Part shown: piece after piece, positions 1 to 61,061 of the stretch | Layout: the number at the start of each line of letters is the position of its first letter | Position numbering within the stretch: the stretch's first letter is position 1 | Source: Urbifossiella limnaea | GTDB lineage: Bacteria; Planctomycetota; Planctomycetia; Gemmatales; Gemmataceae | Direction of reading: 5' to 3' | DNA length: 64,000 bases | Assembly (NCBI RefSeq): GCF_007747215.1 | Contig: NZ_CP036273.1 | Span: 930,001-994,000, forward strand | Made by a program: the position numbers and the translations under genes | Notes under the pieces: generated by a model | The model's input: only the letters and a program-made list of their open reading frames with translations | Told to the model about the DNA's origin: nothing | The model's database searches: none

Positions 1-1
1 C

Positions 2-418
2 GGCACCGCCCGCACGTGGACGCTCGGCCGCATCCGGCCGGGGCCGCGGGCGACACTGCCGCACCCCGCCGCGGTGCAGGCCGTGGCCTACCTGCCCGAC
101 GGCAAGAGCCTGGTGACGGCGTGCGCCGACGGCCGCGTCCGGGTGTGGGATTTGACGGCGCTGAAGCCGGCGGTCCGGGCCGAGTTCGCGGCGTCCGTGC
201 GGGTGCTGGCGGTGACGGGGGACGCGATCGTGGGCACGGCCGAGGGTGCGGCGGTGACGACGTGGGACGCGCGGACCGGGGCGGTGCGGGCGGTGTGGGA
301 AGTGCCCGGCGGGTCCGGCACCGCGGCGGCGCTGACGGCCGACGGGCGGTATTTGGCGCGCGGCACCTCGGCGGGCGTGGTGGGGGTGTACCGCGTGGCC
401 GAGAAGCGGGCGCGATAA
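2..418 (+). CDS. WD40-repeat protein, C-terminal end (5' truncated)
   Basis: The reading frame enters from the left edge and stops with TAA at 416-418, leaving about 138 residues. It shows at least two WD40 blades: one with G-R-V-R-V-W-D followed by L-T-A-L-K-P, and one ending V-T-T-W-D-A-R-T-G. A further degenerate blade ends near V-G-V-Y-R-V. WD40 propellers are protein-interaction scaffolds, and planctomycetes carry many, often fused to kinases. The missing N-terminus could hold a kinase or more blades. The next gene on the same strand is the kinase-tubulin fusion. A functional link is possible but is inferred only from proximity. Confidence 0.75.
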   Translation, partial: GTARTWTLGRIRPGPRATLPHPAAVQAVAYLPDGKSLVTACADGRVRVWDLTALKPAVRAEFAASVRVLAVTGDAIVGTAEGAAVTTWDARTGAVRAVWEVPGGSGTAAALTADGRYLARGTSAGVVGVYRVAEKRAR

Positions 419-429
419 CCGGGCGACCA

Positions 430-454
430 GCCGGCTCACGCCGGCCGTTCGCCG
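430..454 (+). repeat. Single copy of the GCCGGCTGACGCCGGC-type palindromic repeat
   Basis: This 25-nt stretch differs at one position from the right arm of the large inverted repeat at 13790-13893. It contains the imperfect palindrome GCCGGCTCACGCCGGC followed by CGTTCGCCG. It lies just after the stop codon of the WD40 gene and is probably a dispersed REP-like or terminator element. Confidence 0.55.
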
Positions 455-473
455 TCCTGAGCTCCCGCCCGGA

Positions 474-491
474 TGTTAACCCTGGTTAACA
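474..491. promoter_or_regulatory. Palindrome TGTTAACC-CT-GGTTAACA, operator candidate
   Basis: A perfect 8-bp inverted repeat with a 2-nt spacer lies about 40 nt upstream of the -10-like box of the kinase-tubulin gene. It is AT-rich in a very GC-rich region, which favours a protein-binding site over a terminator. The regulator is unknown. Confidence 0.45.
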
Positions 492-529
492 CTCCGGGCC
501 GGTTCTTCCGCCCCGGCCGGAAATTCCTG

Positions 530-538
530 TGCTAGGGT
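530..538 (+). promoter_or_regulatory. Extended -10-like box (TGCTAGGGT)
   Basis: TG-C-TAGGGT at 530-538 matches the layout of the extended -10 before the DJ-1 gene (TGCTAGAAT at 17481-17489). If used, transcription starts near 545. That excludes an upstream in-frame ATG at 529 as the start of the kinase gene and leaves a 35-nt leader before the ATG at 580. No good -35 box is visible. Confidence 0.4.
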
Positions 539-579
539 TCGAACGGTCCACCCCCTCCGCGCCGCCACCGGGGCCGCCG

Positions 580-3500
580 ATGTCCGTCCGTATCGAGAGC
601 CACGCCGAGCCCATCCCGGGCTACAAGCTGCTCGACCGCCTCGGGTCGGGCGGGTTCGGCGAGGTGTGGCGGTGCGAGGCGCCCGGCGGCATCAACAAGG
701 CCGTCAAGGTCATCTTCGGCGACCTCCGCAGCCAGGACAACGACCTCGTCCGCTACGCCGAGCAGGAGCTCAAGGCGCTCAAGCGCGTCAAGCAAGTCCG
801 CCACCCGTACCTGCTCGCCCTCGACCGGTACGACATCGTCGACGGCAAGCTGATGATCGTGATGGAGTTGGCCGACTGCAACCTGTGGGACCGGTTTCGC
901 GAGTGCCGCGAGAAGGGCCACCCGGGCATCCCGCGCGACGAGCTCCTCGGCTACATGCGCGAGGCCGCCGAAGTGCTCGACCTGATGAACGACCAGTTCG
1001 GGTTACAGCACCTCGACATCAAGCCGCAGAACCTGTTCCTGCTGTACAACCACGTGAAGGTCGCCGACTTCGGGCAGGTCAAGGACTTGCAAGGGGTCAT
1101 GGCCAGCGTCACCGGCGGCATCACCCCGGTGTACGCGGCCCCCGAGACGTTCGACGGCCTCGTGTCGCGGTACTGCGACCAGTACAGCCTGGCGTGCGTG
1201 TACCAGGAACTGCTGACGGGGCAGCGGCCGTTCGACGGCACCAGCATGAGCCAGCTGCTGATGCAGCACCTGCAGCTGCCGCCGGACCTGGCCCCGAGCC
1301 CACCCGCCGACCGGCCGGCGCTCCTGCGGGCGCTGGCGAAGCGGCCCGATGACCGCTGGCCGACCGTGTCCGCGTTCGTACGCGCCATCCAGGACGGCGG
1401 CGGCGGCAGCGGTGCCGTCGGCCGCGCCGCGCCGACGGCCGACTCGGCCAACGACCTCGGCCCGAAGCCCGGCTCCGGCATCCACGGCCTGGAGTTGGAG
1501 ACGCCTTCCCCGCGCGGCCTGCTCGACACCGACAACCACGCCGCCCTCATCACGCCCGCCCCGCCCGAGGTCACCGGCGACGGCCCGCTGCGGCCCGCCG
1601 TCGTCATCGGCATCGGGCAGGCCGGCCTGCGGGTGGCGCAGCGGCTGCGATTCGAGCTGGCCGAGCGGTACGGCCCGGCCGAGTTCACGCCACTGGTCCG
1701 CACCCTCGCCATCGACACCGACCCGGACACGCTCGACGACGCCGAGCGGCCGCGGCCACAGGACCGGCTGGCGGCGCTGCCGGCGGACTGCATCATTCCG
1801 GCGAAGCTGAACCGGGCCAGCCACTACCTCAAGCCGCGGCTCAACGGCCGCAACCTCACCGACGGCTGGTTCGACCCGCAGCTGCTGTACCGCATTCCGC
1901 GGACGCCCCAGACGATGGGCCTCCGCCTGTTCGGCCGGCTCGCATTCATGGACCACTACCGCACCGTCATGGCGAAGCTCGGCGCCGAGCTGGAAGCCGC
2001 GCTGGCCCCGGACAGCCTGCACCTGACGGAGCAGCGCACGGGGCTCCGCCGGCGGACGAACCGGCCGCGGGTGTACGTCGTGGCCGGGGCCGGCGGCGGC
2101 ACCGGCGGCGGGATGCTGCTCGACGTGGCCTACGCCGTCCGCGCGCGGCTGAAGCGGATGGGGTACGAGAGCCCGGAGCTCGTCGGCGTGCTATTCCTGC
2201 CGCCGGCCGACGCCTCGCTGGCCCCGCCGCAGGCGCTCGGCAACGCCTACGCCACGCTCACCGAGCTGAACCACTACACCCGGCCGGACACGACGTTCAC
2301 CGCCCACTACGACGACCGCAGCGGGGCGGTCAAGGAGAAGGACGCGCCGTTCACCCGGGTGCTGCTCGTGCCCGGCCCGGCGGGGGCGGTGTTCAACGGC
2401 ACCCGTTCCACGCCGCCGGCCACCGGCGTCGTCGGCCGCGGGGCCCTCACCCGCCCGGCGCCGGCGGGCGTCGGCACGCGAATGACGCCGCCGGGCATCG
2501 CCGTCCCCGGGGCGCGCAAGCCCGGCTCCGGGGCCACCGGCACACCCGGGTCGCGCGTCGTCCCGGTGCCGGGGTTCGGGCAGACGCCGGAACCGGCCGG
2601 GACCGCATTCAAGGCCGTCACCCAGGTCGCCGAGCTGATCCGCCTCGACCTGTTTACCCCGGTCGGTCGGACCGCCGACGCCCAGCGCGAGGCGAAGCTG
2701 GCCGGCCTGCCGCCAGGCGTCACCGTGGGCGCGTTCGGCGTCGCGGCGTTCGATTGGCCGCGTGCCGAGGTCGTGGTCCGGACGGCGGAGACGGTGTCGC
2801 GGAAGGTCCTGACGGCGTGGCTCCTGCCGAACGTGAAGCGTGCCCGCGAGGTGATCCCGACGTGGGCCGCCGCCCAGTGGACGCGGATGGAACTCGACCC
2901 GGACGCGGTGCTGGCGCGGCTCCAGGCCGCGGCTGAATCCGCGACGGGGGCGCGCACCGAAGACCTGATCGCCGCCGCGACCGAGCCGCTGGTCCCGAAG
3001 GGCTGGCTGGCCCGGCTGCCGGAGCCCGAGCGCGTCGCCGTCGCGGTGGACGGGCTGGTGAAGTTGTTCGGCCCGCCGTCGGGGCCGGCGCACCGCGTGC
3101 CGACGGCCGCCGAGGGGGCCGTGGCCGAGGCCGCGCTGGCGGTCGCCAACGAGGCGGCGCTCCACCTGCGGACGGTCGTCGCGGGCCTGGTCGAAGACCC
3201 CCAGTTCCGCCTGGCCGGGGCCGAGGAGGCGACCCGACAGTTCCTGGCGACGACGGACCGCCTCGCCGAGAAGTATTACGCCGAGGCCGCCGCCGCCGAC
3301 CTGAAGGCGACCGCCGCCTACGAGTGCCTCGTGCAGTACACGCACTTTCAGAAGGGGATGCGCAAGCCGGCCGCGGCCGAGATCGCGGACGCGCTGCGGC
3401 TGTTCCCCCGCGCCCGCTACCAGGGCGTGCTGCACCGCACGCTGGCCCGGCTGTACCAGACGGTGCGCGACCCGCTGGAGGCGCAGCTGGCCGACGTCTC

Positions 3501-4194
3501 CGGCTGCCGCGAACGGCTGGCCGAAGTGGCGGGGCCGGTCGGGCCGGCGGCGGCGGACTTCATCCCCGGCCCGCGCCGGCTGATGCCGCCCGGGTGCCTC
3601 GGCGTCGACGACGCGGTGGCCCGGTTCGAGGGCGTGCTGACCGACGCCGACCAGGCGGCCATCGACGCCCGGGTGCAGGCGCTGCTGGAGCCGGAGCACG
3701 GCGGCCTGTTCCAGGCGTGCTTCTCGTCGTCGGCCGGCCCCGAGGGCGTGGTCGCGGCGGTGCGCGAGGAGGCGCGGTCGTACCTCGACGCGCGGCTCGG
3801 CGACGTCGACATGGGGGCGATGTTCGCGGAGCGGTTCCGCAGCCGGCAGAGCGCCGAGGCCGCGGTCGGCCACGCCTTCGCGGAGGCGGAACCGGAGTGG
3901 GTCGGCGGCGGCCCGTGGACCGGCACGGAAGTCACGGTGCTGGCGGTGCCGGACGGCGTGGCCGGCGCCCCGGTGCGGGAGCTGGCGGCGCGGGCGATCC
4001 CCGTCGCGGGGCTGCCGACGGCCGACAGCCGCGACGACGTGACCATCTACCGCGAGTACCCCGCGGTGCCGCTGTCGGCGGTGCCGCACCTGGGGCCGGC
4101 GGGTTCGACGGCGTACCAGAACCTGCCCGAGTCGAACCAGTGCAGCCTCCACAGCCGGCTCGACGTGACGGCGTGGACGGGGGTGGACGACTGA
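580..4194 (+). CDS. Ser/Thr protein kinase fused to a tubulin/FtsZ-like GTPase domain
   Basis: The predicted protein has 1204 residues. Residues ~14-270 form a Hanks-type kinase: glycine loop GSGGFGEV, lysine in AVKV (43), catalytic loop HLDIKPQN (144-151), DFG (163-165) and an APE-type motif. The HRD arginine is Leu, so this is a non-RD kinase with its catalytic Lys and Asp residues intact. After a low-complexity linker comes a nucleotide-binding fold: V-I-G-I-G-Q-A-G near residue 332, and the glycine-rich tubulin signature GAGGGTGGG at 503-511, as in the bacterial tubulin-like (Tubulin_2) family. The remaining ~600 residues are mostly helical and Ala/Glu-rich with no recognised domain. ATG 580 is preferred over the in-frame ATG at 529 because of the -10 position. 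Two GTPase genes follow on the same strand. Substrate and role are unknown. Confidence 0.85.
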   Translation: MSVRIESHAEPIPGYKLLDRLGSGGFGEVWRCEAPGGINKAVKVIFGDLRSQDNDLVRYAEQELKALKRVKQVRHPYLLALDRYDIVDGKLMIVMELADCNLWDRFRECREKGHPGIPRDELLGYMREAAEVLDLMNDQFGLQHLDIKPQNLFLLYNHVKVADFGQVKDLQGVMASVTGGITPVYAAPETFDGLVSRYCDQYSLACVYQELLTGQRPFDGTSMSQLLMQHLQLPPDLAPSPPADRPALLRALAKRPDDRWPTVSAFVRAIQDGGGGSGAVGRAAPTADSANDLGPKPGSGIHGLELETPSPRGLLDTDNHAALITPAPPEVTGDGPLRPAVVIGIGQAGLRVAQRLRFELAERYGPAEFTPLVRTLAIDTDPDTLDDAERPRPQDRLAALPADCIIPAKLNRASHYLKPRLNGRNLTDGWFDPQLLYRIPRTPQTMGLRLFGRLAFMDHYRTVMAKLGAELEAALAPDSLHLTEQRTGLRRRTNRPRVYVVAGAGGGTGGGMLLDVAYAVRARLKRMGYESPELVGVLFLPPADASLAPPQALGNAYATLTELNHYTRPDTTFTAHYDDRSGAVKEKDAPFTRVLLVPGPAGAVFNGTRSTPPATGVVGRGALTRPAPAGVGTRMTPPGIAVPGARKPGSGATGTPGSRVVPVPGFGQTPEPAGTAFKAVTQVAELIRLDLFTPVGRTADAQREAKLAGLPPGVTVGAFGVAAFDWPRAEVVVRTAETVSRKVLTAWLLPNVKRAREVIPTWAAAQWTRMELDPDAVLARLQAAAESATGARTEDLIAAATEPLVPKGWLARLPEPERVAVAVDGLVKLFGPPSGPAHRVPTAAEGAVAEAALAVANEAALHLRTVVAGLVEDPQFRLAGAEEATRQFLATTDRLAEKYYAEAAAADLKATAAYECLVQYTHFQKGMRKPAAAEIADALRLFPRARYQGVLHRTLARLYQTVRDPLEAQLADVSGCRERLAEVAGPVGPAAADFIPGPRRLMPPGCLGVDDAVARFEGVLTDADQAAIDARVQALLEPEHGGLFQACFSSSAGPEGVVAAVREEARSYLDARLGDVDMGAMFAERFRSRQSAEAAVGHAFAEAEPEWVGGGPWTGTEVTVLAVPDGVAGAPVRELAARAIPVAGLPTADSRDDVTIYREYPAVPLSAVPHLGPAGSTAYQNLPESNQCSLHSRLDVTAWTGVDD

Positions 4195-4237
4195 CCGTTC
4201 CGCCGCCCGCGGCGGCGCCCGCCGGCACACCGTTCGC

Positions 4238-4243
4238 TACAAT
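4238..4243 (+). promoter_or_regulatory. -10 box TACAAT before the DUF697 GTPase gene
   Basis: TACAAT lies 32 nt before the chosen ATG at 4276. The same hexamer or TATAAT/TATAAC recurs at similar distances before other genes here. No convincing -35 box. It suggests the GTPase gene can be transcribed separately from the kinase gene. Confidence 0.5.
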
Positions 4244-4275
4244 CGCGCCACGCACCGGTGCGTGGGGAGGAGCGA

Positions 4276-5442
4276 ATGGGCCGCATCTGGGACGTGGTCC
4301 GCCGCATCGCCACCGGCGACAACTCCCCGCCGCCGGACCTCGACGCCACCCTCACGCAACTCCGCGCCCGCACCCCCGCCCCCGTCTTCTGGCTCCTGGG
4401 CAAAACCCAGTCCGGCAAGACCAGCATCACCCGCTTCCTCACCGGCGCCGACGACGCCGTCATCGGCAGCGGCTACCGCCCGTGCACCAAGACCTCGCGC
4501 AAGTTCCAGTTCCCCACGCCCGACGCCCCGCTGATGGAGTTCCTCGACACCCGCGGCGTCGACGAACCCGGCTACGACCCGGCCGAGGACGTCGCCGCGT
4601 TCGACCCCGTGGCCCACGTCGTCGTCGTCACCGCGAAGGCCACCGACTTCGCGCAGGGGAACGTCCGCGCGGGGCTGGAGCCGATCCGCCGGGCGAACCC
4701 GTCGCGGCCCGTGATCCTGTGCGTGACGTGCCTGAACGAGGCGATCCCGCGGCAGCCGCACCCGCCGTACGGGAAGTGGGAGGAGTACGAGCCGCTGCGG
4801 CGGGCCATCGAGGAGCACACGCGGGCGTTCGCCGGGCTGTTCGACGTGTGCGTGCCGATCGACCTGACCCGGCCCGACGACGGCTTCCCCGAGCCGAACT
4901 ACGGCGGCGAGGCACTGAAGGCGGCGCTGCTCGCGTCGCTGCCGGGGGCGTACCGGCAGACGCTGGTACAGTTGAAGGAAGCGACGGACGCGCTGAAGGA
5001 CGTTCACCTCCGCCACGCGGTGCCGGTTATCCTGGGCTACGCCTCGATGGCGGCCAGCGCCGGGGCGGTGCCGGTGCCGTTCCTCGACCTGCTCATCATC
5101 CCGGGCATCCAGAGCCGGATGGTGACGCACCTGGCGGCCATGTACGGCCAGCCAATGACGCCGGAGCGGTACAAGGAGGTGGCCGCGTCACTGGGGGCGG
5201 GGCTGGTGGCCCGGCAGGCGGTGCGCGAGATCACGAAGCTGATCCCGTACGTGGGGTCGGTGGCCGGCGCGGCGGTGGCGTGGGCCAGCACGTACGCCCT
5301 GGGGCGGGCCTTCTGCTACTACTACCAGGCGGTGTGCGAGGGGCACGTCCCCGACACGCAGACGCTGCGGCGGGTGTACCACGAGCAGTACAGCGCCGCG
5401 GAAGGGACGTGGCGCTCGGACCAGGTGAAACGAACCCCGTGA
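4276..5442 (+). CDS. Membrane-associated GTPase with C-terminal DUF697-like domain
   Basis: 388 residues. The Walker A / G1 motif is GKTQSGKTS (42-50) and G3 is DTRG (91-94). The usual NKxD is not clear: the sequence there reads V-T-C-L-N-E-A. Residues ~243-350 form two hydrophobic stretches (around L-D-L-L-I-I-P-G and Y-V-G-S-V-A-G-A-A-V-A-W) with an intervening amphipathic part, as in the DUF697 domain that tethers Era/YcjF-type GTPases to membranes. ATG 4276 has a strong GGGGAGGAG ribosome site 5 nt upstream; an in-frame GTG at 4258 overlaps that site and is unlikely. The stop codon (5440-5442) touches the large inverted repeat at 5441. It probably works with the neighbouring GTPase and kinase-tubulin protein, but this is inference. 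Confidence 0.8.
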   Translation: MGRIWDVVRRIATGDNSPPPDLDATLTQLRARTPAPVFWLLGKTQSGKTSITRFLTGADDAVIGSGYRPCTKTSRKFQFPTPDAPLMEFLDTRGVDEPGYDPAEDVAAFDPVAHVVVVTAKATDFAQGNVRAGLEPIRRANPSRPVILCVTCLNEAIPRQPHPPYGKWEEYEPLRRAIEEHTRAFAGLFDVCVPIDLTRPDDGFPEPNYGGEALKAALLASLPGAYRQTLVQLKEATDALKDVHLRHAVPVILGYASMAASAGAVPVPFLDLLIIPGIQSRMVTHLAAMYGQPMTPERYKEVAASLGAGLVARQAVREITKLIPYVGSVAGAAVAWASTYALGRAFCYYYQAVCEGHVPDTQTLRRVYHEQYSAAEGTWRSDQVKRTP

Positions 5443-5525
5443 AGGGGTGAAGGGGTGAAGGGGTGAAGGGGTGACGAAAGCCGCTCGGTCGTCACCCCTT
5501 CACCCCTTCACCCCTTCACCCCTTC
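5441..5525. repeat. Perfect 37-bp inverted repeat built from GAAGGGGT units
   Basis: The left arm 5441-5477 is four tandem copies of GAAGGGGT plus GACGA. The right arm 5489-5525 is its exact reverse complement. The loop is 11 nt (5478-5488). The first GTPase gene ends at its left edge with a TGA overlapping the arm. In RNA this would be a very stable hairpin, possibly a terminator or processing signal between the two GTPase genes, although no U-run follows. Confidence 0.9.
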
Positions 5526-5556
5526 GCGGCGCTCCCGGTGCAATCGGAGGGTGCCC

Positions 5557-7125
5557 GTGACGAAAGTGCGCCTGGCCACACTCGCCGCGTTGTTCTTCGC
5601 CCCCTGGCTGTTCCTTGTCGGCGTCGGCGGCTACCACCTGTGGGACCGCGGCTGGTGGTTCTGGGCGTGGTGGCCCATGTGCCTCAGCTTCGGGCTGGCG
5701 TACTTCCTCGCCTACCGCTGGACCCGCGGCCGCGGTCTGCTGCCCGACACCGACCAGCCGCCGCCGAACTACTGGACCGACCGCGACAAGGCCGCCTGGG
5801 AGCTGGTCCAGGCCAAGGCCAGGGCGTACGCCGCCGTCAGCGCCGACCAGCTCGGCGACCCGCGGCACTACACCGAGATCGCGCTCGACCTGTCGGAGAA
5901 GGTGTCCGCGATCTACGCCCCCGGCAGCGCCACGCCGATCGACCACCTCACGATTCCCGAAATCCTCGCGTGCGTCGAGCTGGCCGCGGCCGACCTCGAC
6001 GAACTGGTGCGGAAGTACCTGCCCGGCAGCCACATGCTCCGCGTCCGCGACTACCAGCGCGCCCGCCAGGCCGCCGACTGGTACCGCACCGGGCAGAACG
6101 TCTACTGGGCCGGCTCGACGCTCCTCAACCCGGTCGAGGGCGGCCTCCGCTGGCTCGCCACCCGCTACGGCCTCGGCAACCTCGTGGACCGCCTCCAGGG
6201 GAACGTGCTGCTGTGGGTCCACACCGCGTTCGTCCACCAGCTCGGGCACTACCTCGTCGAGATGAACAGCGGCCGCCTCAAGGTCGGCGTGAAGCGCTAC
6301 CGCGAACTCATCGCCGCGCACCTGGCGCCGCCGATGCAGGCCGACCTCGCCCCGCCCGACGCCCCGGAACAACCCGCACCGACGACGACGCCCCCGGCCG
6401 CCACGCGCACCGGCATCGCCGTGTTGGGACCGGTGAAGGCGGGGAAGTCGAGCCTCGTGAACGCGCTGCTCGGCCAGCAGGCCGCGACGGTGGACACGCT
6501 CCCCGTGCCGCACGTCGGCGTGCGCTACAACCTGTCGCTGAACGGCACCTCGCCCGTCACCATTCTCGACACGGCCGGCTACGGCCAGGACGGCGCGAAC
6601 GAGGCCGAGTTCGCCGCGGCCACGAAGGCGAGCACCGAGGCCGACCTGATCCTGTTCGTGACGCCGGCGACGAACCCCGGCCGCCGCGCCGACGTGGACC
6701 TACTGGACCGGCTGAAGGCGTGGTTTGCGGAGCGGCCGCAGTTGAAGCTGCCGCCGGTGATCGCGGTGGTGAACCAGATCGACCTGCTGAGCCCGAAGGC
6801 CGAGTGGGCGCCGCCGTACAACTGGCCGACCGGCACCCGGCCGAAGGAAGTGACGATCCGCGACTGCGTGGCCGCGGTGCGGGAGCAGTTGGGGAGCCGG
6901 GTGATCGCCGTGGTGCCGGTCTGCGCCCGCGGCGGCGACGCCTTCGGCATCAAGGAGGGGCTGGTGCCGGCGGTGGCGGCACAGCTGGACGACGCCCGCG
7001 GCGCCGCCGTGCTGCGGGCGTTCCACGCCGAGGCGGAAGCCGACCAGTGGAAGCGCGTCGGCGCCCAGGTGCTCGAAGGCGGAAAGAAGGCGCTGGGGAT
7101 TCTGTGGGGGAACCTGAAGAAGTAG
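5557..7125 (+). CDS. Membrane-anchored Era/dynamin-like P-loop GTPase
   Basis: 522 residues. Two N-terminal membrane segments (roughly 6-27 and 33-52, rich in Trp/Phe) are followed by a ~230-residue helical region. The GTPase domain has G1 GPVKAGKSS (291-299), G3 DTAGYG (338-343) and G4 NQID (406-409). GTG 5557 is chosen because GGAGG at 5546-5550 sits 6 nt upstream; an in-frame GTG at 5551 directly abuts that site. The order of membrane hairpin, helical region and GTPase differs from the first GTPase, so the two are not simple duplicates. The family is related to small GTPases that act at membranes. Partners are not known from sequence. Confidence 0.8.
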   Translation: MTKVRLATLAALFFAPWLFLVGVGGYHLWDRGWWFWAWWPMCLSFGLAYFLAYRWTRGRGLLPDTDQPPPNYWTDRDKAAWELVQAKARAYAAVSADQLGDPRHYTEIALDLSEKVSAIYAPGSATPIDHLTIPEILACVELAAADLDELVRKYLPGSHMLRVRDYQRARQAADWYRTGQNVYWAGSTLLNPVEGGLRWLATRYGLGNLVDRLQGNVLLWVHTAFVHQLGHYLVEMNSGRLKVGVKRYRELIAAHLAPPMQADLAPPDAPEQPAPTTTPPAATRTGIAVLGPVKAGKSSLVNALLGQQAATVDTLPVPHVGVRYNLSLNGTSPVTILDTAGYGQDGANEAEFAAATKASTEADLILFVTPATNPGRRADVDLLDRLKAWFAERPQLKLPPVIAVVNQIDLLSPKAEWAPPYNWPTGTRPKEVTIRDCVAAVREQLGSRVIAVVPVCARGGDAFGIKEGLVPAVAAQLDDARGAAVLRAFHAEAEADQWKRVGAQVLEGGKKALGILWGNLKK

Positions 7126-7126
7126 G

Positions 7127-7207
7127 GGAGTCGTTGGGAGTCTGCGGGAGTGGAGGAGTTCGAACCCCGATTTCACTCCTCCACTCCCGCAGACTCCCAA
7201 CGACTCC
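7127..7207. terminator. Perfect 33-bp inverted repeat between convergent genes
   Basis: Arms 7127-7159 and 7175-7207 are exact reverse complements with a 15-nt loop. The element fills the gap between the stop of the GTPase gene (7125) and the stop of coaD (7208), so it can act as a bidirectional terminator. The left arm is repeated almost verbatim at 18051-18084. Confidence 0.85.
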
Positions 7208-7708
7208 TCAACTGCCTCTCGCCCGCCGCACGAGCGGCCCCTTGACCGGGTCCGGGAGGAATTTGGACAGGTCGCCGCCGAGCGCCGCGATCTGCCGCAG
7301 CAGCGAGCTGCTGACGTGGCTGAACTCCTCCTTGGCCATCAGGAACACCGTCTCCACGCCGGGGTCGAGGTTCAGGTTCATCAGCGACATCGTGAACTCG
7401 TACTCCATGTCGGACAGGGTGCGCAGGCCGCGGATCATCACCCCGGCCCCGAGCCCGCGGACGAACTGCACGGCCAGCCCGGTGAACGCCTTCACCTCCA
7501 CGTTCCCGAACGGCGCCGCCACCTCCTCCAGCAGCCGCACCCGCTCCTCGATCGAGAACAGCGTCGTCTTCTCAGGGTTGATGCCGACGCCGACGACGAG
7601 CCGGTCGTACAGCCGGCTGCCGCGCGCGATGATGTCGAGGTGGCCGAGGTGAACGGGGTCGAACGTGCCCGTGTAGACCGCGACCCTTGAGCTTAACGGG
7701 TTTGACAT
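7208..7708 (-). CDS. coaD: Phosphopantetheine adenylyltransferase
   Basis: 166 residues, the normal length for the family. It catalyses the fourth step of coenzyme A synthesis, transferring AMP from ATP to 4'-phosphopantetheine. The nucleotidylyl-transferase motif TGTFDPVHLGH (13-23) and the C-terminal S-S-S-L-L-R-Q motif, preceded here by H-V, are clear. The ATG at 7708 gives the canonical N-terminus just before the first beta strand; upstream in-frame codons run into the inverted repeat at 7723 and are not used. It is a cytosolic enzyme and stands alone, convergent with the GTPase gene. Confidence 0.95.
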   Translation of the reverse strand: MSNPLSSRVAVYTGTFDPVHLGHLDIIARGSRLYDRLVVGVGINPEKTTLFSIEERVRLLEEVAAPFGNVEVKAFTGLAVQFVRGLGAGVMIRGLRTLSDMEYEFTMSLMNLNLDPGVETVFLMAKEEFSHVSSSLLRQIAALGGDLSKFLPDPVKGPLVRRARGS

Positions 7709-7722
7709 CGCTTCCCCCGTGG

Positions 7723-7817
7723 CGGAATGACCAATTTCCAAGGACCCACCAATGACCAAGGACAGAACTCACTGTCTTCTTTGGTCATTGGTGGGTCATT
7801 GGTCCTTGGTCATTCCG
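7723..7817. repeat. Inverted repeat of the AATGACCAAGGACC family
   Basis: Left arm 7723-7765 and right arm 7772-7817 are imperfect reverse complements; the outer CGGAATGACCAA and an inner ACCCACCAATGACCAA block match exactly. The right arm contains the last codons and TGA of the aminotransferase gene on the minus strand. A related hairpin lies at 12454-12533. Confidence 0.8.
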
Positions 7818-8941
7818 CGGACCGCGGCGACGAACCGATCGATCTCGCCTTCATTGTTGTAACCGTGCGGGCTGACCCGCACGCGGCCGGCTCGGGCGTT
7901 CACGATCACGCCGGCCGCCCGGCACGCCGCTACAACCGCTTCCGCCGGCACGCCCGGCACCGTCAGCGACACGATCCCCGACGCCTCCCCCGGCCGCCGG
8001 CTCGAATACACGTCCCATCCCGCCGCAGTCGCCTTCTCGCTTAGGTAGTCGGTCAGCTCCAGCACTCGCGCCTGAAGGGCCGGGACGCCCGCGTTCAGCA
8101 ACAGCTCCAGGCTGGCGCCGAAGGCGGTGATGCCGGGGACGTTCAGCGCCCCGCCCTCCCACCGGCCGGCGTGCGGCTTCAGCGTGAAGTCGATCGTGCT
8201 GAACTCCAGCGGCCGCGCCACGCTGAACGCCCCCACGCCGATCGGGTGGAGCCGGTCCACCCACTCGCGCCGCACGTAGCCGAAGCCGGCGCCCTCGGGG
8301 CCGAGCATCCACTTGTGGCCGTCGGCCGCGAGCGCGTCAATGGGCGAGCGCTGCACGTCGATGGGGAACGCGCCGAGCGCCTGGATGGCGTCCACGAAAA
8401 AGAACACGCCGCGCTCGCGGCACAGCTCGCCGAGCGCGTCCAGGTCGGCGCGGAAGCCGGTGGCGAACTGCACCGCCGACACCGCCAACAGGCGCGTCCG
8501 GCCGTCCACCGCCGCGCGCAGGTCGTCGGGCAGCACCCGACCGGCGCGCGTGGGCACGCGGCGGGCCTCGACGCCGCGGCCGGCGAGGTTCAGCCACGGG
8601 TACTGGTTCGCCGGGTACTCGTCGGCCGGGAAGACGACGTTGTCGCCGCTCCGCCACGGGAAGCCTTCCGCGATCACGCCGATGCCGTGCGTGGTGCTGG
8701 GGACGAAGAACACGTCGTCGGCGCTCGGGGCGTTGACAAGCCGGCGGGCGAGCTCGCGCACCTCGCGGACGCGGTGCGTCCAGTCGCGGACGGCAGCGAT
8801 GCCGTTCGCGGCGAGGCTGGCGCCATACTCGTGCAGCGCCGCGACCGCCACGTCCGGCAGCGGCGCGACGGCGGCGTGGTCGAGGAACGCCCAGTGCCCG
8901 GTGACCGGGAAGTGCGAGCGGAACGCGGCCCGGTCCATCAT
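7796..8941 (-). CDS. Class V (Csd/NifS-fold) PLP-dependent aminotransferase-like enzyme
   Basis: 381 residues. The N-terminal L-D-H-A-A-V-A-P motif, the central V-D-A-I-Q-A-L-G cofactor-binding motif and the PLP lysine in A-D-G-H-K-W-M place it in the cysteine desulfurase / isopenicillin epimerase fold. The family covers desulfurases, selenocysteine lyases and epimerases, and the exact reaction cannot be fixed here. A distant paralogue lies at 55190-56311. A GGGAGGGG ribosome site precedes two adjacent ATGs at 8941 and 8938. The last residues (G-M-T-K-D-Q) are encoded by the inverted repeat at 7796-7817, so the element has supplied the end of the protein. Confidence 0.85.
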   Translation of the reverse strand: MMDRAAFRSHFPVTGHWAFLDHAAVAPLPDVAVAALHEYGASLAANGIAAVRDWTHRVREVRELARRLVNAPSADDVFFVPSTTHGIGVIAEGFPWRSGDNVVFPADEYPANQYPWLNLAGRGVEARRVPTRAGRVLPDDLRAAVDGRTRLLAVSAVQFATGFRADLDALGELCRERGVFFFVDAIQALGAFPIDVQRSPIDALAADGHKWMLGPEGAGFGYVRREWVDRLHPIGVGAFSVARPLEFSTIDFTLKPHAGRWEGGALNVPGITAFGASLELLLNAGVPALQARVLELTDYLSEKATAAGWDVYSSRRPGEASGIVSLTVPGVPAEAVVAACRAAGVIVNARAGRVRVSPHGYNNEGEIDRFVAAVRGMTKDQ

Positions 8942-9749: not shown

Positions 9750-9837
9750 AAGGATGAAGGATGAAGGATGAAGGATGAATCCGAGTCGGCGGCCGCCGGC
9801 GTCTTGATTCATCCTTCATCCTTCATCCTTCATCCTT
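9750..9837. repeat. Perfect 32-bp inverted repeat of ATGAAGG units
   Basis: Arms 9750-9781 and 9806-9837 are exact reverse complements made of four GGATGAA-type units. The 24-nt loop itself holds the palindrome CGGCGGCCGCCG. It fills the gap between the protease gene and trpE, 9 nt before the trpE ATG. Confidence 0.9.
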
Positions 9838-18041: not shown

Positions 18042-18050
18042 ACAGTCTGC

Positions 18051-18132
18051 GGGAGTCGTTGGGAGTCTGCGGGAGTGGAGGAGTGCGGACGGGGTCTTAC
18101 TCCTCGACTCCCGCAGACTCCCACCGACTCCC
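18051..18132. repeat. Inverted repeat, second copy of the 7127 hairpin family
   Basis: The left arm 18051-18084 is identical over 33-34 nt to the left arm at 7127-7159. The right arm 18099-18132 pairs with it with two mismatches. It starts 10 nt after the stop of the DJ-1 gene and marks the left edge of the lower-GC patch. Confidence 0.85.
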
Positions 18133-18202
18133 GATTTTGCAGGCCAATTCTGGCCGCAATTTCTTTAGCCAACGGACGCGGGATCGGGGGCGCTGGTTCG
18201 CA

Positions 18203-23725: not shown

Positions 23726-23790
23726 GTTAGGCTGGGGCGCAAGCCCCGTCGGGCGTCCGAACCCCGACGGGGCTTGCGCCCCGGCCTAAC
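23726..23790. repeat. REP-like inverted pair, copy R1 of the transposase-linked family
   Basis: A 65-nt element starting GTTAGGCTGGGGCGCAAGCC and ending with its reverse complement. Each arm is a GTTAGG head followed by a GGGGC-GCAA-GCCCC hairpin. It lies between convergent stops at 23661 and 23821. Other copies: 56337, 56882 and 60997. Confidence 0.85.
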
Positions 23791-39547: not shown

Positions 39548-39630
39548 AGTGGGCAGTGGGCAGTGGGCAGTGGGCAGTTAAGACCAGAGCCGGGTGCTAA
39601 CTGCCCACTGCCCACTGCTCACTGCCCACT
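39548..39630. repeat. 33-bp inverted repeat of AGTGGGC units
   Basis: Arms 39548-39580 and 39598-39630 pair with one mismatch. The left arm is four AGTGGGC units plus AGTTA. The dtd stop codon and its last three codons (S-G-Q) lie in the right arm. It sits between dtd and livK on the same strand. Confidence 0.88.
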
Positions 39631-45397: not shown

Positions 45398-46534
45398 ATG
45401 AGACCTCGCGGCGTGGCGGTGGCGGGCACCGGGTTCATCGGCCCGGTCCACGTCGAGGCGGTGCGGCGGCTCGGGCACCGTGTCGTCGGTGTGCTCGGCT
45501 CCACGCCGGCGAAGGGCCGCGCCGCGGCCGACGCCCTCGGCGTGCCGGTCGCCTACGATTCGCTGGCCGCGCTGCTCGCCGACCCGGCCGTCGAGGTGGT
45601 TCATCTGGCGACGCCGAACCGCGCCCACTTCGCGCAGGCGCAGGCGGTTCTCGAAGCGGGCAAGCACGTCGTCGTCGAGAAGCCGCTGGCGATGACCGGC
45701 GCCGAGACGGCGGAGCTCGTGCGGCTGGCGGCGGCGCGGCCCGGGCAGGTGGCGGCGGTGAACTACAACGTCCGCTTCTACCCGCTGTGCCTCGACGCCC
45801 GCGAACGGGTCCGCGCCGGCGAGATCGGCGACGTGCTGCACGTCACCGGCTCGTACCTCCAGGACTGGCTGCTGTACCCGACCGACTTCAACTGGCGCGT
45901 CCTGGCCGCGGACGGCGGCGACCTGCGGGCCGTCGCCGACATCGGCACCCACTGGCTGGATTTGGTTTGCTTCATCACCGGGCTCGAAATCGAGGCCGTG
46001 TGCGCCGACCTGCGGACCGTGTACCCCGTGCGGCAGAAGCCGCTCGGCGGCAGCGAGACGTTCACCGGCTCCGCGGGGCAGGGGGGCGAGTCGGTGGCTG
46101 TGACGACCGAGGACTACGGGTCTATACTGCTCCGCTTCAAGGGCGGCGCCCGCGGCTGCGTGACGGTGTCGCAGGTGACGGCGGGGCGGAAGAACTGTCT
46201 GCGCTTCGACCTGGCCAGGACCAAGGTGTCACTGGCGTGGGACAGCGAGGAGCCGAACGTGCTGCACGTCGGGCACCGCGGCAAGTCGAACGAGTGCGTG
46301 GGCCGCGACCCGGGGCAGCTGGCGGCCGCGGCGCGGCGGTTCAGCGACTACCCCGGGGGCCACGCGGAGGGCTTCCCCGACTCGCACAAGCAGCTGTTTC
46401 GCGCCGCCTACGCGGCCATCGACGGCGACGCGGGGCCGTACCCGACGTTCGCCGACGGCCACCGCGAGGTGGTGGTGTGTGAGGCCGTATTGCGGAGTAG
46501 CCGGACGGGGTCGTGGGAACGGGTCGCGGAATGA
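45398..46534 (+). CDS. Gfo/Idh/MocA-family NAD(P)-dependent dehydrogenase
   Basis: 378 residues. The Rossmann start reads V-A-V-A-G-T-G-F-I-G-P-V-H, followed by H-V-V-V-E-K-P-L-A-M (EKP motif) and D-I-G-T-H-W-L-D-L (the catalytic-His block of the family). A GGGAG site precedes ATG 45398. Sugar or inositol oxidation is likely; the substrate is not known. Its TGA stop (46532-46534) is supplied by the left arm of the inverted repeat at 46529. Confidence 0.87.
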   Translation: MRPRGVAVAGTGFIGPVHVEAVRRLGHRVVGVLGSTPAKGRAAADALGVPVAYDSLAALLADPAVEVVHLATPNRAHFAQAQAVLEAGKHVVVEKPLAMTGAETAELVRLAAARPGQVAAVNYNVRFYPLCLDARERVRAGEIGDVLHVTGSYLQDWLLYPTDFNWRVLAADGGDLRAVADIGTHWLDLVCFITGLEIEAVCADLRTVYPVRQKPLGGSETFTGSAGQGGESVAVTTEDYGSILLRFKGGARGCVTVSQVTAGRKNCLRFDLARTKVSLAWDSEEPNVLHVGHRGKSNECVGRDPGQLAAAARRFSDYPGGHAEGFPDSHKQLFRAAYAAIDGDAGPYPTFADGHREVVVCEAVLRSSRTGSWERVAE

Positions 46535-46600
46535 CGAAGGACGAAGGACGAATGACAGAACCAGGCCGGTTCGTCATTCGTCCTTCGTCCTTCGTCATTC
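46529..46600. repeat. Perfect 28-bp inverted repeat of GACGAAG units, carrying both flanking stop codons
   Basis: Arms 46529-46556 and 46573-46600 are exact reverse complements. TGA in the left arm ends the MocA-type gene; the symmetric TGA in the right arm ends pyrF on the other strand. The 16-nt loop is GC-rich. It probably terminates both transcripts. Confidence 0.92.
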
Positions 46601-56336: not shown

Positions 56337-56409
56337 GTTAGGCCGGGGCGCAAGCCCCGGCGGGTGATCGGGCGCGAACCCGCCGACGGGGCTTGCGCCC
56401 CGGCCTAAC
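56337..56409. repeat. REP-like inverted pair, copy R2
   Basis: 73-nt inverted pair beginning GTTAGGCCGGGGCGCAAGCC. Each arm is a GTTAGG head plus a GGGGC-GCAA-GCCCC hairpin with a GCAA tetraloop. It borders the 3' end of the transposase gene and the start of the class V aminotransferase gene. Confidence 0.88.
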
Positions 56410-56881: not shown

Positions 56882-56954
56882 GTTAGGCCGGGGCGCAAGC
56901 CCCGTCGGGCGATCGGCCGCGAACCCACCGACGGGGCTTGCGCCCCGGCCTAAC
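56882..56954. repeat. REP-like inverted pair, copy R3
   Basis: 73 nt, same design as R2 and nearly identical to it, 19 nt upstream of the transposase start and 4 nt from the stop of the FAD oxidoreductase gene. Confidence 0.88.
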
Positions 56955-60996: not shown

Positions 60997-61061
60997 GTTA
61001 GGCCGGGGCGCGAGCCCCGTCGGGGTTCTGACGCCCGCCGGGGCTCGCGTCCCGGCCTAAC
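60997..61061. repeat. REP-like inverted pair, copy R4
   Basis: 65 nt, beginning GTTAGGCCGGGGCGCGAGCC, with the tetraloop changed from GCAA to GCGA. It lies between the divergent kinase and sigma genes, unlike the other copies, which sit at gene 3' ends. Confidence 0.85.

Follow-up and report, generated by a model that had tools for sequence, protein, structure and literature searches.

A kinase-tubulin fusion gene and a conserved pair of GTPase-like genes at one planctomycete locus: probably two units, not one machine

The stretch of DNA analysed here, referred to as the window, comprises 64,000 nucleotides (G000:C1:930001-994000) of a 7.8-Mb single-contig genome; the named loci related to it in sequence are planctomycete metagenome-assembled genomes, several of them labelled Gemmataceae. 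Its 5' end is occupied by four genes on the + strand, encoding a WD40 protein, a Ser/Thr kinase fused to a tubulin/FtsZ-like domain (kinase-tubulin in what follows), and two GTPase-like proteins, here called G1 and G2. All four have a strong coding signal in the G+C content of third codon positions (GC3) and domain matches far beyond chance, in agreement with the domains and order that had been described in a first-pass annotation of the same DNA. The features, in window coordinates, are the following.

2..418, + strand: WD40 beta-propeller gene, 3' part (329 aa; whole gene G000:C1:929429-930418, mostly 5' of the window; PF00400, E=9.8e-40)
421..500, no strand: two palindromic hairpins in the gap between the WD40 and kinase-tubulin genes (fold -44.5 kcal/mol, z -4.35)
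529..4194, + strand: kinase-FtsZl1 (Tubulin_2) fusion, paralogue A (1221 aa from GTG)
622..1392, + strand: Ser/Thr kinase domain of the non-RD type, residues 32-288 (HLD catalytic loop; K, D, N and DFG kept)
1600..2370, + strand: Tubulin_2 (PF13809) nucleotide-binding domain, residues 358-614 (E=2.2e-30; T1-type GIGxxG at its start)
2086..2112, + strand: T4 signature loop GAGGGTGGG, residues 503-511 from ATG
2374..2598, + strand: low-complexity insert rich in Gly, Pro and Ala, residues 616-690 (largely unconserved)
2599..4191, + strand: C-terminal region of the kinase-tubulin, about 530 residues (family-conserved; no Pfam match)
4258..5442, + strand: G1, P-loop GTPase-like protein ending in a membrane-type DUF697 tail (noncanonical G4; the ATG at 4276 is the likely start)
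5432..5534, no strand: giant hairpin in the G1-G2 gap (46-nt arms, mirrored GAAGGGGT repeats; -93 kcal/mol, z -11.9)
5551..7125, + strand: G2, with N-terminal membrane helices, a helical middle region and a C-terminal G domain (residues 289-395)

Do these four genes belong together? The first-pass annotation had proposed a single module for the cytoskeleton or for membrane remodelling, controlled by phosphorylation, with the kinase-tubulin working alongside both GTPases. Gene presence was searched over 102 genomes of the order, where G1 was found in 62, Tubulin_2 in 89, and relatives of G2 were widespread. The neighbourhood of G1 was read at 33 loci (the window and 32 relatives), with at least 2.5 kb of upstream sequence in 28 of the 32 relatives. 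A kinase-tubulin gene lies beside G1 in none of the 32 relatives' loci, and the sole case is the window's own locus. The same holds upstream of G1 in relatives of the same genus: G092 (8.5 kb read), G088 (13.6 kb), and G091 and G090 (2.8-2.9 kb). In three complete genomes, the nearest A gene is found 0.16-2.4 Mb from G1-G2 (at 1.45 versus 1.29 Mb in G010, 1.00 versus 0.43 Mb in G011, and 5.13 versus 7.50 Mb in G012). By contrast, 28 of the 33 loci have a G2 gene on the strand of G1 and within 500 bp of its 3' end. Thus, of the three GTPase/tubulin genes supposed to be conserved together, the two GTPase genes are, and the kinase-tubulin is not. The WD40 gene is present as annotated, but no such gene was found near the kinase-tubulin or G1-G2 in any of the relatives' loci read. 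Moreover, 30 genomes have Tubulin_2 but no detectable G1, which suggests that kinase-tubulins are able to work without the GTPase pair; the reverse, G1 without Tubulin_2, was seen in three.

The genome contains three kinase-tubulin genes, at 0.93 (the window copy), 5.38 and 5.40 Mb. In a FastTree phylogeny, the window copy groups with one set of relatives' genes, termed A (support 1.0), the 5.38-Mb copy groups with another, termed B, and the 5.40-Mb copy stands apart. In at least 15 relatives (including G006, G008, G046, G047, G052, G053, G054, and G075) B is followed by A in tandem on one strand; such tandems were read directly at L090-L098 and L101, and further pairs were inferred from coordinates. 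A divergently oriented PF04476 gene accompanies the tandem in at least seven of the loci read directly. The same neighbour of B is common to the tandem loci and to the 5.38-Mb B locus of the genome under study, where A lies 4.4 Mb from B; it is therefore A that moved, while B stayed. The ancestral partner of A is B and not the GTPases, and neither a GTPase nor a VWA gene was found among the scanned immediate neighbours of the 5.38- and 5.40-Mb copies. The tandem arrangement at L090-L098 and L101 may itself represent a two-subunit system. G089, the closest relative, has its A gene divided between two contigs (L099, G089:C506, and L100, G089:C342) at the low-complexity insert, with one in-frame TGA; this may be a real break or an assembly fault.

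G1 and G2 are each present as a single copy in the genome. G1 has the P-loop GKTQSGKT, a DTRG motif, and a DUF697 (PF05128) match at residues 243-335 (E=9.4e-10; 38.9 bits against a cut-off of 27.7). The usual G4 motif, N/TKxD, is not found in G1, which has VTCLN instead (VTNLH and LTCLH in orthologues); for this reason, G1 may have an unusual nucleotide specificity and is perhaps no plain GTPase. G2 begins with a hydrophobic stretch (residues 8-26), and a structure model of low confidence (mean pLDDT, the predicted local distance difference test, of 52) has helices at 5-23 and 36-58. Its GTPase domain at 289-395 matches MMR_HSR1 (E=5.2e-12) with the motifs GPVKAGKSS, DTAG, and NQID, which, unlike those of G1, make up a canonical set. 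The two proteins thus correspond to the DUF697-tailed GTPase and the GTPase with N-terminal membrane helices of the earlier description. The G1 and G2 genes are adjacent in other families of the class as well (L109, L111, L113, and L115), and the best reading is that G1-G2 constitute a little-described, conserved membrane GTPase pair.

How does this pair relate to known systems? The DUF697 region of G1 resembles that of slr1306 proteins (NCBIfam slr1306_fam over residues 232-317, E=2.6e-10), but G1 scores far under the curated cut-off (39.5 against 490 bits) and is paired with G2. The GxxxxGKS, DxxG, and NQxD motifs of G2 are those of TRAFAC-type GTPases (MMR_HSR1; Der, Era, MnmE, and HydF) and of the dynamin-like LeoA, from which it differs by its N-terminal membrane helices and helical middle region. 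G2 falls far under every equivalog cut-off, and its dynamin and LeoA matches span only part of the G domain; the best Dynamin_N stretch covers profile positions 1-30 of 168 and no more. A YcjX/YcjF-type pair was rejected, the YcjX family (which we take to be PF04317) not being among the Pfam matches of G2 at E<=1.

The likely start of the kinase-tubulin is the ATG at 580, which gives a protein of 1204 aa. Pkinase matches residues 32-243 (E=3e-26), and in the catalytic loop, QHLDIKPQN, the catalytic Asp (D163 when counted from GTG) is preceded by Leu and not Arg, making this a non-RD kinase. The subdomain II lysine, catalytic Asp, Asn, and DFG expected of an active Hanks-type Ser/Thr kinase are all kept. 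HLD is found in all 31 aligned homologues, with their catalytic residues intact, so that the motif characterises the whole family and does not reflect a loss in this gene. Activation-loop phosphorylation is usually not required by non-RD kinases, and the kinase of the fusion is predicted to be independent of it. A reading of the locus as a defence system was ruled out: the PADLOC matches (Mad6 and PD-T4-6) fall almost wholly on the kinase domain of the fusion, and LeoA/LeoBC matches to G1 and G2 fall on the G domain only.

Is the second half of the fusion a tubulin-type domain? Its Tubulin_2 match scores 106.6 bits against a Pfam cut-off of 27, and the homologous domains of relatives and paralogues match PF13809 in 28 of 28 cases and PF00091 (Tubulin) in 21 of 28. 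The loop GAGGGTGGG corresponds to residues 520-528 when counted from GTG and to 503-511, the numbering first given for it, when counted from the ATG. Both this T4 loop and the T1 motif GIGQAG are aligned and conserved across the 31 homologues; they occur in the same order as in tubulins and are retained in nearly all. As far as sequence can say, the loop is a genuine tubulin/FtsZ T4-type loop, as had been proposed. The structural comparisons lend weak support to a tubulin fold. A family-profile search of the PDB gave 3zid (a tubulin/FtsZ GTPase, CetZ-like) as its best match, at a non-significant E=0.46, followed by the FtsZ-named chain 4b45 (E=0.87), both aligning at T1 and T4. A single-sequence AlphaFold model of the domain from the window is poor (mean pLDDT 44); in it, a strand (170-176) precedes the T4 loop and a helix (181-199) follows it. 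Foldseek searches with this model returned mostly TubZ and FtsZ as top matches (probability up to 0.89, E>0.01, template modelling score <0.35).

The fusion itself is already known and belongs to a known family, not a new one. FtsZl1 was defined by Makarova and Koonin in 2010, with four planctomycete members that carry an N-terminal kinase (PMC2875224). The protein studied here shares with that branch the succession of kinase, Tubulin_2, and long C-terminal region, the GGGTG of T4, and the absence of FtsZ_C and Tubulin_C, neither of which was found on the fusion. It differs in occurring as three copies in a genome without FtsZ, in the ancestrally tandem A/B pair, and in an adjacency to GTPase genes that is confined to one genome. 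The same 2010 study proposed a membrane-remodelling system of FtsZl1 with VWA, GTPase, and OmpA proteins, an inference that one of its reviewers doubted (PMC2875224). The module suggested in the first-pass annotation comes close to this hypothesis, and the gene cluster offered in its support does not stand. An operon with VWA, OmpA-type, and distinct GTPase genes is a frequent but non-defining trait of FtsZl1; no VWA or OmpA partner was found among the scanned immediate neighbours of the three kinase-tubulin copies. The architecture was reported again in 2023 (PMC9871819) and, in 2024, among the cytoplasmic Ser/Thr kinases of planctomycetes, where the tubulin-like domain is named as the commonest domain exclusive to the cytoplasmic kinases of the phylum (PMC11032199). 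Neither gene neighbourhoods nor A/B subclades nor the HLD (non-RD) feature are treated in the passages of that study consulted here.

Planctomycetota are described in the 2024 study as lacking FtsZ (PMC11032199), and the present genome agrees with this: the NCBIfam ftsZ model, TIGR00065, matched nothing anywhere in it, not even the kinase-tubulins, but did match 13 of 14 control genomes. The three kinase-FtsZl1 proteins are thus the sole tubulin-superfamily members detected in the genome.

An alternative view of the tubulin-like domain is that it has degenerated into a non-polymerising nucleotide sensor whose sole role is to regulate the attached kinase, in which case the protein would act in signalling and not as a cytoskeletal element. 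The T6-H7 elements, which are needed for classical filaments, are reported to be unrecognisable in FtsZl1 (PMC2875224); the poor structural profile match, a long C-terminal region unlike that of FtsZ, and the GGTSGG found in the T4 loop of some A orthologues also speak for this view. On the other hand, the T1 and T4 motifs persist in tubulin order, and filament formation was common to every tubulin-superfamily protein that had been characterised up to 2010 (PMC2875224). A sensor is the less likely reading, although one to be taken seriously.

Taken over the whole locus, the likely explanation, and the one we hold with fairly high confidence, is that two independent units and an unrelated WD40 gene have been joined by gene dispersal in this lineage, and that these four genes probably look like one machine only because chance placed them side by side. 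Several observations weigh against this. In this genome the kinase-tubulin, G1 and G2 genes share one direction, and the gaps measure 64 bp between the kinase-tubulin and G1 and 108 bp between G1 and G2, so that the kinase-tubulin may possibly be co-transcribed with G1-G2 in this lineage. The assembly of the closest relative, G089, is in pieces, with contig breaks near both genes; the contig that carries its G1 stops 155 bp upstream of that gene. No G1 is found in the 517 bp after its A gene and no end of A in the 155 bp before its G1, but the two may be adjacent there with intervening DNA. G1 and Tubulin_2 are weakly associated across the genomes (both in 59, G1 alone in 3, Tubulin_2 alone in 30, neither in 10; Fisher p=0.005, in a test that ignores relatedness and genome completeness), a co-occurrence that lineage-wide loss could explain. 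Finally, the unrecognisable T6-H7 elements make polymerisation uncertain, and neither the G2 nor the tubulin-domain model is confident.

The co-directional genes, short gaps, and weak co-occurrence speak for the four-gene module, as does the report that FtsZl1 genes elsewhere lie near predicted GTPases and kinases (PMC2875224). Set against these are the lack of any adjacency among the relatives, the ancestral pairing of A with B, the genomes in which G1 or Tubulin_2 occurs without the other, and the hairpins in the gaps that flank the GTPase genes; we consider the module highly improbable. A different possibility is a new operon specific to this lineage, in which A, once it had arrived beside G1-G2, was captured into their transcription unit, an arrangement that would be recent but functional. 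This would fit the 64-bp gap on one strand, and no + strand terminator-like site was found in window 1-8000. However, about 38 bp 5' of G1 are conserved with G089 (the match stops 38 bp before G1), which suggests that G1 retained its own upstream signals, and no second genome shows the arrangement. Such a capture appears quite improbable.

How might two independent units work? The first is paralogue A of a cytoplasmic kinase-FtsZl1 pair, encoded as B then A in many relatives, which in this lineage was displaced from B and ended beside G1. In the most likely mechanism, its tubulin-like domain would bind GTP and self-assemble to form a scaffold or filament, either by itself or together with B. 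The fused kinase, predicted from its HLD motif to be constitutively competent, would then phosphorylate the polymer or substrates recruited to it, and in this FtsZ-less cell the assembly state would determine how much the kinase puts out locally. In the second unit, G1 and G2 would most likely interact to form a heteromeric switch that works at the inner membrane. A cytoskeletal or membrane-remodelling role would be plausible for the kinase-tubulin and for G1-G2, each taken as a separate unit. A bolder version, which we regard as unlikely, has the ancestral A and B, which many Gemmataceae-family genomes encode head to tail, form a single heteropolymer that carries its own non-RD kinases and is the main tubulin-type cytoskeleton in the absence of FtsZ, with G1-G2 as a separate membrane GTPase system. 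Planctomycetes need no FtsZ for division, and their membranes are elaborate; proteins of the kinase-tubulin type therefore merit experiments. What is added here is that the four-gene module is unconserved and that the tandem A/B genes and G1-G2 are the units worth testing; effort that would be wasted on a false operon can be saved.

Of the two hairpins at 421..500, the first belongs to a sequence that recurs many times across the genome (419-473 has many matches of 28-33 nt, frequently arranged in mirrored pairs). Giant intergenic hairpins with arms of 28-46 nt, many of them composed of mirrored short tandem repeats, occur at 5432-5534, 7116-7218, 7722-7818, 9750-9837, 18050-18133, 39548-39630, and 46529-46600. 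The second of these separates G2 from a convergent gene that is also found 3' of G1-G2 in G089:

7116..7218, no strand: giant hairpin in the convergent gap that follows G2 (z -15.8)
7208..7759, - strand: cytidylyltransferase-like (PPAT-type) gene

In the window and relatives together, and by crude GC3-based gene calls, long hairpins occupy 19 of 55 convergent gaps, 19 of 112 tandem gaps, and none of 39 divergent gaps. This is the pattern expected of elements at gene 3' ends, and such a role for the giant hairpins is a lead. In most relatives, the G1-G2 gap contains a hairpin of -87 to -194 kcal/mol, with sequences that are apparently unrelated, which suggests that the hairpin may have been replaced repeatedly at a fixed site. 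The G1-G2 gaps with a hairpin are these:

window 5442-5551
L105:1364-1541
L102:11209-11561
L103:3961-4100
L107:4091-4257
L104:2057-2206
L068:9580-9792
L073:9710-9917

A further palindromic repeat, GTTAGGCCGGGGCGCRAGCCCCG, is found at window positions 23726-23790, 56340-56406, 56884-56952, and 60997-61061. The genome matches it 55 times in the forward and 53 times in the reverse orientation; these matches are unevenly spread and mostly in mirrored pairs about 20 bp apart. The repeat resembles repetitive extragenic palindromes (REP) or miniature inverted-repeat transposable elements (MITE).

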